From contig NZ_CP024160.1 of assembly GCF_002736145.1 (NCBI RefSeq), positions 124,001 through 188,000 of the forward strand: a stretch of 64,000 nucleotides of DNA, read 5' to 3'. The position numbers and the translations under genes are program-made. The notes under the pieces are model-generated. The model made no database searches, was not told where the DNA came from, and worked only from the letters and a program-made list of their open reading frames with translations. Positions 27,832 to 28,872 of the stretch are shown here, piece by piece. The stretch's first letter is position 1. The number at the start of each line of letters is the position of its first letter. Origin of the DNA: Collinsella aerofaciens (GTDB lineage Bacteria > Actinomycetota > Coriobacteriia > Coriobacteriales > Coriobacteriaceae).

Positions 27832-28545
27832 ATGGCAGAGCCGATGCTTTCCGTCTACAACATCAACGTCTGGTACGGCGCCATCCACGCCATCAAGGAC
27901 ATCTCCTTTAACGTCAACGAGGGTGAGATCGTGGCCTTGATCGGCGCCAACGGCGCCGGTAAGTCCACGACGCTTAAAACCGTTTCGGGCCTGCTACGTT
28001 CCAAGACCGGTTCCATCAAGTTTATGGGCGAGGACATTACCCATACGCCTGCCGACAAGCTGGTGGGCAAGGGCCTGGCTCAGGTCCCCGAGGGCCGTCG
28101 CGCCTTTTTGCAGATGACGGTCGAGGAGAACCTGGAGATGGGCGCCTATACACAGCCCAAGTCCACGGTGGCTCCGGGCCTTGAGCGCGTCTACGAGCAG
28201 TTCCCGCGCCTGAAGGAGCGCCGTCGCCAGGTCGCCGGCACCCTTTCGGGCGGCGAGCAGCAGATGCTCGTTATGGGGCGCGCCCTTATGAGCAACCCCA
28301 AGCTGCTCATGCTCGACGAGCCTTCCATGGGCCTGGCGCCGATTCTGATTGAGCAGATCTTCCAGATTGTCGAGGACCTGCACAAGGCCGGCACCACGGT
28401 GCTTCTGGTCGAGCAAAACGCACAGATGGCGCTTTCCATCGCCACACGCGGCTACGTGCTCGAGACCGGCAAGATTACCATGACCGGCACCGGCCAAGAG
28501 CTCCTGCACGACGATAACGTTCGCAAAGCATATCTTGGTGGTTAG
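27832..28545 (+). CDS. livF: branched-chain amino acid ABC transporter ATPase LivF
   Basis: A 237-residue ATPase starting at the ATG one base after the livG stop. It has Walker A GANGAGKST, signature LSGGEQQML, Walker B LLMLDEPSMGLAP and the LLVEQNAQMALSIA segment typical of LivF. Last gene of the livJJHMGF set. A 14-bp perfect hairpin follows directly. Confidence 0.94.
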   Translation: MAEPMLSVYNINVWYGAIHAIKDISFNVNEGEIVALIGANGAGKSTTLKTVSGLLRSKTGSIKFMGEDITHTPADKLVGKGLAQVPEGRRAFLQMTVEENLEMGAYTQPKSTVAPGLERVYEQFPRLKERRRQVAGTLSGGEQQMLVMGRALMSNPKLLMLDEPSMGLAPILIEQIFQIVEDLHKAGTTVLLVEQNAQMALSIATRGYVLETGKITMTGTGQELLHDDNVRKAYLGG

Positions 28546-28546
28546 A

Positions 28547-28578
28547 TAGTTACGGCGTTTTACCAAACGCCGTAACTA
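28547..28578 (+). terminator. 14-bp perfect hairpin after livF
   Basis: TAGTTACGGCGTTT (28547-28560) pairs exactly with AAACGCCGTAACTA (28565-28578) around a TACC loop, starting one base after the livF stop. It probably ends or protects the liv transcript; the following bases (CTTGACG) are not a T-run. Confidence 0.55.
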
Positions 28579-28589
28579 CTTGACGCTGC

Positions 28590-28689
28590 AAGCCCGCCAG
28601 GGCGGCAATCTGCCTTTCAACTTCGGCGGCATTGACCTTCTGGTCATGCCGCCGAAGTTGAAAGGCAGATTGCTCGCCCTGGCGGGCTT
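28590..28689. repeat. 100-nt near-perfect palindrome
   Basis: The arm 28590-28637 folds back on 28642-28689 with only two single-base bulges (T at 28632 and T at 28674) and a TTCT loop: about 47 base pairs. Outer arms are AAGCCCGCCAGGGCG and CGCCCTGGCGGGCTT; the inner arms contain CTGCCTTTCAACTTCGGCGG and its complement. It is far longer than needed for termination, and only TTT follows on the plus strand. It could be a palindromic mobile repeat, a very stable non-coding hairpin or an RNase III substrate. Confidence 0.85.
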
Positions 28690-28747
28690 TCGCTGTCGTT
28701 GCCAAAACATCGACGTTGTGGCAGATGCCAACGACTACTCCCTTTAT

Positions 28748-28812
28748 GTTGCGGTGGAATAGGGACTAAATGGGAGCCTCAGGGGCCAAAAGAGTCCCTA
28801 TTCCACCGCAAC
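28748..28812. repeat. 20-bp perfect inverted repeat before cutC
   Basis: GTTGCGGTGGAATAGGGACT (28748-28767) is matched without error by its complement at 28793-28812, 25 nt apart. The GGGAC core recalls the palindromes at 20457-20564. It lies 60 bp before the cutC start, so it would be in or near that gene's leader. Confidence 0.8.
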
Positions 28813-28872
28813 TTCATGGGGGTGTGTGACAATGCCCGTCGGAAAACATCTGCTGTCTTTGGGGGTCTATCT

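Follow-up and report, generated by a model that had tools for sequence, protein, structure and literature searches.

What is the long, almost perfectly symmetrical palindrome that lies behind livF in this stretch of DNA, and how did it come to be there and to be so symmetrical? The stretch analysed (the window, 64,000 nucleotides) corresponds to positions 124001-188000 of the genome G000, which is one contig of 2,306,349 bases. An earlier note, made from the letters alone, had described about 47 base pairs with two single-base bulges and a 4-nt loop, and when arms and fold were recomputed the description held: positions 28590-28689, folded alone, gave at -99.5 kcal/mol a stem of 47 bp closed by a 4-nt loop, with 2 single internal bases left unpaired; the inverted-repeat arms, of 15 nt (28590-28604/28675-28689) and 28 nt (28605-28632/28646-28673), are both 100% complementary. 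The 121 nt around the palindrome reached -105.8 kcal/mol in comparison to -43.5 +/- 3.5 in dinucleotide shuffles (z -17.8; none of 200 reached so low a value). The earlier note had named an assembly artefact and an already named repeat family as the two findings that would speak against it. Since the genome is a single 2.31-Mb contig (one assembly of the strain was examined), an assembly gap is ruled out as the explanation of the palindrome, and a search of Rfam 15 returned no family above gathering score; the sub-threshold matches were hairpin look-alikes, for the most part miRNA models.

The palindrome forms the longer of two hairpins in a composite 3'-end element dispersed in Coriobacteriaceae. 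The composite consists, in this order, of a short hairpin (HP1), the motif GACGCTGC, a hairpin of ~100 nt, CGCTG and a tail of ~25 nt, about 150-180 nt in total. The features around the window copy are as follows.

28543..28545, plus strand: livF stop codon TAG (ORF 27832-28545), directly 5' of the element
28549..28576, plus strand: HP1, short perfect hairpin GTTACGGCGTTT-TACC-AAACGCCGTAAC, between livF stop and palindrome and missing from the earlier note
28582..28589, plus strand: GACGCTGC, 5' foot motif, invariant in the alignment of 34 composites
28590..28689, plus strand: long palindrome, from inverted-repeat arms and fold
28625..28673, plus strand: putative template-switch tract, identical to the orthologous left arm and tip read in reverse complement
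28691..28695, plus strand: CGCTG, 3' foot motif, invariant, a direct repeat of the CGCTG within GACGCTGC and an IS110-family target in sister genomes
28696..28722, plus strand: tail TCGTTGCCAAAACATCGACGTTGTGG, semi-conserved, recurring behind other copies
28738..28752, plus strand: CTCCCTTTATGTTGC, matching CCCCTTTTTAAGTTGC, the 3' end of the sister-strain intrinsic terminator in the livF 3'-end comparison, and probably a remnant of that terminator

Downstream of the composite, at 28737-28823, a second inverted repeat GTTGCGGTGRAATAGGGACT...AGTCCCTATTCCACCGCAAC was observed, which is found after livF in most strains and looks like another palindromic repeat family; an inverted repeat akin to it lies close to a composite in L108.

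The spread of the composite was followed with a covariance model (R1) built from the alignment of 34 composites; its E-values are rough because its calibration was short, and the strong matches were visible by eye as well. The R1 search gave about 28 composites in the window's own genome, so that the view of an isolated palindrome was rejected, and dispersed copies were also returned by DNA search, both in this genome and in many of the same genus. Of 65 genomes from the family, 47 contained R1 matches, and 5 of its 6 genera were represented. Most members of the Collinsella aerofaciens complex carry 20-42 copies, and the R1 matches number 24-42 in most genomes of the G000 cluster, some of them antisense to the same hairpin; the other Coriobacteriaceae genera have fewer copies. 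Named records with the A-subtype core were all Collinsella, mostly C. aerofaciens. In the other genera HP1 was mostly absent and the order GACGCTGC - stem - TCA - tip - TTTC - stem - CGCT(G/T) was kept. Mismatches in the stem were conserved in all subtypes (TTCA on the left and TTTCA on the right; CAA..TG/CA..TTG), and on the opposite strand they read, from sequence, as tandem G.A pairs. The search of genome and relatives for the window arms, which the earlier note had proposed, recovered family copies dispersed in both but, across the genome and the loci fetched, no second copy with the window arm.

Several other views of the element were considered and set aside. HP1 as an independent terminator family was rejected on finding the HP1 pattern in G000 confined to composites (19 forward and 19 reverse matches, with 0/0 in the backward-read control). 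A phage origin was rejected with the exact core absent from IMG/VR, and an autonomous version at 1.470-1.474 Mb with only ordinary genes and degenerate matches there. The literature searched for Collinsella palindromes or repeats yielded no description of the composite family, which we regard as previously unnamed. Two kinds of irregular copy were also seen. In L042, L110, L112 and L161 a doubled module, HP1-GACGCTGC-(5-7 nt)-HP1'-GACGCTGC, stands ahead of one long hairpin, and in L015 (G000:C1:1578424-1578665), L108, L159 and L441 the arrangement is nested, half of an older copy adjoining a complete new one; the new copy in L108 bears TTTGTAG, also present ahead of the hspR copy, as if the donor's stop codon had been co-copied.

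The composites are placed with respect to stop codons. HP1-type copies were measured where a reading frame could be identified upstream, 65 in all, from three Collinsella genomes together with a few more; 59 of them begin -4 to +6 nt from the stop, the sense orientation of these positioned copies following from the construction of the stop-distance test. In most non-HP1 copies GACGCTGC follows a stop by 2-10 nt, and the ends of opposite-strand ORFs near the 3' side of the composite are scattered (4-79 nt). That the unit always includes a TAG stop was dropped as a general rule, TAG ending 20 of the 41 window ORFs anyway. At two loci of genera g4 and g6 the 5' foot was seen to overlap the gene end: in L309 TTGACGCTGC provides the stop TGA, and in L308 the frame seems to continue into the stem. 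The genes upstream of composites include tyrS, lysS, prfA, rpoC, ettA, queA, hspR, pyrE, larE, an aroF-type gene and livF in G000, and trpS, leuS, ileS, ftsZ, accA and pckA elsewhere. Thirteen genes are followed by a composite in each of the three genomes G000, G014 and G024; six (livF, ileS, ftsZ, trpS, leuS and an MsbA-like ABC gene) are sites common to different genera, in comparison to ~0.8 expected by chance (Poisson P about 2e-4, the expected value being our own rough estimate).

When the same gene ends were compared across strains, composite and terminator were found to replace one another. At livF an intrinsic terminator goes with a TAA stop in 15 of 15 strains that have it, and a composite, of at least three subtypes, goes with a TAG stop in 6 of 6. 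Behind ileS a terminator is present in 10 strains and a composite of three subtypes in 10, and behind pyrE a composite is present in 20 of 21 strains, in three subtypes with several HP1 versions and flanked on either side by remnants of older copies; G024 has a different hairpin in the pyrE slot. Collinsella composites seldom have a canonical terminator behind them (5 of 71, within 250 nt downstream). Because alleles are exchanged at livF, ileS and pyrE and few terminators lie downstream, the composite is seen to occupy the terminator's place. As shown by the comparison of strains, the slot at the gene end is fixed and its content exchanged, other subtypes or an ordinary terminator standing there in other strains, and the family copies recombine mutually and are homogenised. 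The sister-strain intrinsic terminators, which share place and genes with the composite, are short GC hairpins with a T-run and are unrelated to it in sequence, whereas in the composite HP1 is followed by CTACTTGACG and the long hairpin by TCGCTG, with no U-tract. The earlier statement that the palindrome is far beyond a terminator needs qualifying: a U-tract is absent, but the element sits in the very slot where sister strains carry an ordinary terminator.

These observations suggest a role at the mRNA 3' end. The composite would be transcribed as the end of the message in replacement of the intrinsic terminator, and its tandem hairpins would terminate transcription without a U-tract and/or shield the message right behind the stop codon. 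We consider it roughly an even chance that the composite is such a U-less tandem-hairpin terminator and/or 3' stabiliser. Termination is supported indirectly by the mutual exclusion of composite and terminators at livF and ileS. With the U-less (I-/U-shaped) or clustered-hairpin terminators (PMC8355165, PMC5335608) the composite shares one or more strong hairpins past the stop without a U-tract; those classes are defined by function or energy, whereas the composite is a homologous and exchangeable sequence family. Hairpins in clusters, lacking strong U-tracts, are proposed to terminate with a weaker requirement for poly-U (PMC8355165), the evidence on U-less hairpins in mycobacteria is conflicting (PMC5335608), and mycobacterial RNA polymerase is reported, in work cited in PMC5335608, to require a U-tract in vitro. 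Arguments against a terminator role are the missing U-tract itself and that the loss of the terminator could be mere damage by an inserting selfish element, and the tandem G.A mismatches of the antisense strand are not obviously explained by a function of the sense RNA.

The selfish explanation, in which a non-autonomous REP/MITE-like mobile element inserts at terminator hairpins or at older copies of itself, deleting one side, and has no host function, is possible but in our estimate somewhat unlikely, and part of what favors it comes from insertions into the element. In sister genomes an IS110-family element (Transposase_20; 1528 bp in L215) was found to interrupt the 3' foot in composites belonging to several subtypes (L044, L109, L114, L115, L215, L434, L436 and others), with the insertion point TCG-CT/CT-GTCG. 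The left-end flanks read ended in TCGCT in 28 of 28 cases, many of the loci being redundant, and the right-end flanks begin CTGTCG, so that CT is the shared core; every left-end flank seen sits in a composite, and the left end is absent from G000. IS621 targets REP elements with a CT core (PMC11208160), and the composite foot may possibly be a natural bridge-RNA target comparable to REP/IS621. Draft contigs often end within or just past a composite (G003, G006, G010, G018, G031, G037), partly because of IS110 insertion. The IS110 target in the foot, like REP for IS621, would suit a selfish element, as would the dispersal of copies in subfamilies, the complete copies with nested or partial older ones next to them (L015, L108, L159, G012) and the terminator remnant right of the livF copy; it accords poorly with the sense orientation and position fixed a few bases from the stop, with the occupation of the same genes across strains and genera, with the livF and ileS exchanges free of target-site duplication, and with the failure to find a partner transposase, neither Y1 transposase of the genome being flanked by a composite.

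The comparison with known repeat classes bears on the same matter. Like REP/REPIN, the composites are dispersed extragenic palindromes with conserved mismatches, some nested, and a target of IS110-family elements; unlike them, they are about 150-180 nt, in sense orientation at stop codons in the terminator slot, and flank no RAYT, with a hairpin of about 100 nt and the foot GACGCTGC/CGCTG in place of 20-40 nt and GTAG/GGAG. Around the Y1_Tnp genes at 881179 and 760130 no pair of GACGCTGC or CGCTGTC foot motifs was found. RAYT as the mobiliser received no support, the RAYT-like gene being flanked by CATTGGGGACAGACT repeats and not by composites: in L336 (G000:C1:760130-760456) the RAYT-like Y1 transposase gene lies between CATTGGGGACAGACT...ATGAGTG repeats. 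Repeats with GGGGACG, similar to those around the RAYT gene, often stand beside composite tails, and one lies between ileS stop and terminator in G000, G041 and G011; as a part of the composite they were rejected, resembling the RAYT-flanking repeats and occurring without a composite. The target-site duplication of a MITE is missing, the two loci with empty alleles, livF and ileS, showing a terminator stretch replaced, and no autonomous transposon sharing the composite termini was present among the loci read. The RYYYAAC/GTTRRRY boxes of attC sites were not found either, HP1 beginning GTTACG, GTTGCG or GTTCCG and the feet being GACGCTGC and CGCTG. Elements of the ERIC/IRU and NEMIS type are imperfect palindromes of about 100-150 nt in transcribed intergenic regions, and we know of no fixed stop-codon distance for them; they belong to other taxa and lack the HP1 module, a separation from the composite that is made by description, not by sequence.

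A tentative proposal, which we think rather improbable in its full form, would combine both roles in a self-spreading exchangeable terminator: it would replace the intrinsic terminator of housekeeping genes exactly from the stop codon, supply the 3'-end function, spread from slot to slot by hairpin-dependent recombination and keep its stems complementary via recurrent template switching. That the composite is instead a regulatory RNA element, a protein or ribosome site beside the stop codon of housekeeping genes, those of translation among them, appears unlikely. The adjoining stop codon, the internal-loop bases TTCA/TTTCA conserved in every subfamily and the many aminoacyl-tRNA synthetases, prfA, rpoC, ettA and queA among the upstream genes speak for it, but many strains lack the composite at the same gene (ileS, livF), subtypes with different stems are interchangeable, and the upstream gene set is mixed.

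The symmetry of the window copy is a separate question. Its ortholog behind livF in the sister genome G029 (L034/L119) is a quasi-palindrome, and the right arm plus tip of the window copy is an exact 49-nt match to the reverse complement of a segment in that ortholog, one such 49-nt event bringing the edit distance over 260 nt down from 27 to 14. With 2 internal unpaired bases, in comparison to a median of 17, the window copy is the most symmetrical of 154 distinct hairpins. The earlier note had advised to check for differences at the tip: the forward tip was seen in 59 of 65 A-type hairpins and the inverted tip in the window copy alone. The perfect copy was found in one genome only, and L049 shows a partial perfection independent of it. 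As in quasi-palindrome correction, the ortholog is imperfect, the derived arm complements its partner exactly, and the one 49-nt tract spans both arm and inverted tip. While an existing quasi-palindrome was replicating, the nascent strand would have jumped template inside the hairpin, copied the left arm and tip reversed and then gone back to the original template, so that a single event would both make the right arm fully complementary to the left and invert the tip. Because one 49-nt template switch from the orthologous state yields both, symmetry and inverted tip are explained together, and it is well supported by this comparison that a single template switch very probably produced them. 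Template switches restoring stems with parallel loop inversion (PMC8794818) and quasipalindrome mutagenesis in E. coli (PMC7202029) have been described. The known cases, from E. coli, yeast and RNA genes (PMC7202029, PMC8794818), share with the window copy the single event, the complementary arms and the inverted loop, but the window tract is ~49 nt, its substrate is a dispersed repeat, and the event is deduced by comparison. Ectopic recombination with another, already perfect copy is a most improbable source of the symmetry, for although family copies do exchange ectopically (for example L018 vs L043 at one gene), neither the genome nor the fetched loci contain another copy with the window arm or inverted tip, and the tract, when reverse-complemented, matches the window copy's own left arm exactly. 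Of the suggestion of recent origin or selection, the recent part thus applies to the near-perfect symmetry, which is particular to the window copy (a quasi-palindromic ortholog and one template switch), but the hairpin itself is no one-off, belonging to a dispersed family with conserved mismatches, strong covariation and a fixed stop-codon position.

The stems of the whole family vary in a related manner. In the composite alignment 96.4% of cells were paired in comparison to 84.3% when shuffled, two-sided changes occurred in 30 of 53 pairs, and the covariation score was 0.338 in comparison to 0.129 shuffled and at most 0.080 in slid versions. One-sided intermediates were few in comparison to 192 two-sided cells, as template switching predicts; their scarcity is consistent with that process, stepwise compensation being expected to leave more. 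Covariation alone does not tell selection on structure from homogenisation by template switching.

Taken as a whole, the explanation by an exchangeable composite family, a template-switched window copy and a 3'-end role is in our judgement about 60% probable. The window copy gives a before-and-after case in which one template switch would have turned an imperfect into a long near-perfect palindrome in a bacterial chromosome, and it exposes family-wide hairpins adjacent to stop codons in common gut bacteria. The paired stem changes nearly without intermediates bear on whether covariation proves RNA function. Because strains differ at one and the same gene, some bearing the hairpin and others a plain terminator, the relation of hairpin to termination is directly testable. 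The symmetry is very probably a recent single event upon an older family at terminator positions, a family whose function and spread we infer from the comparisons above.
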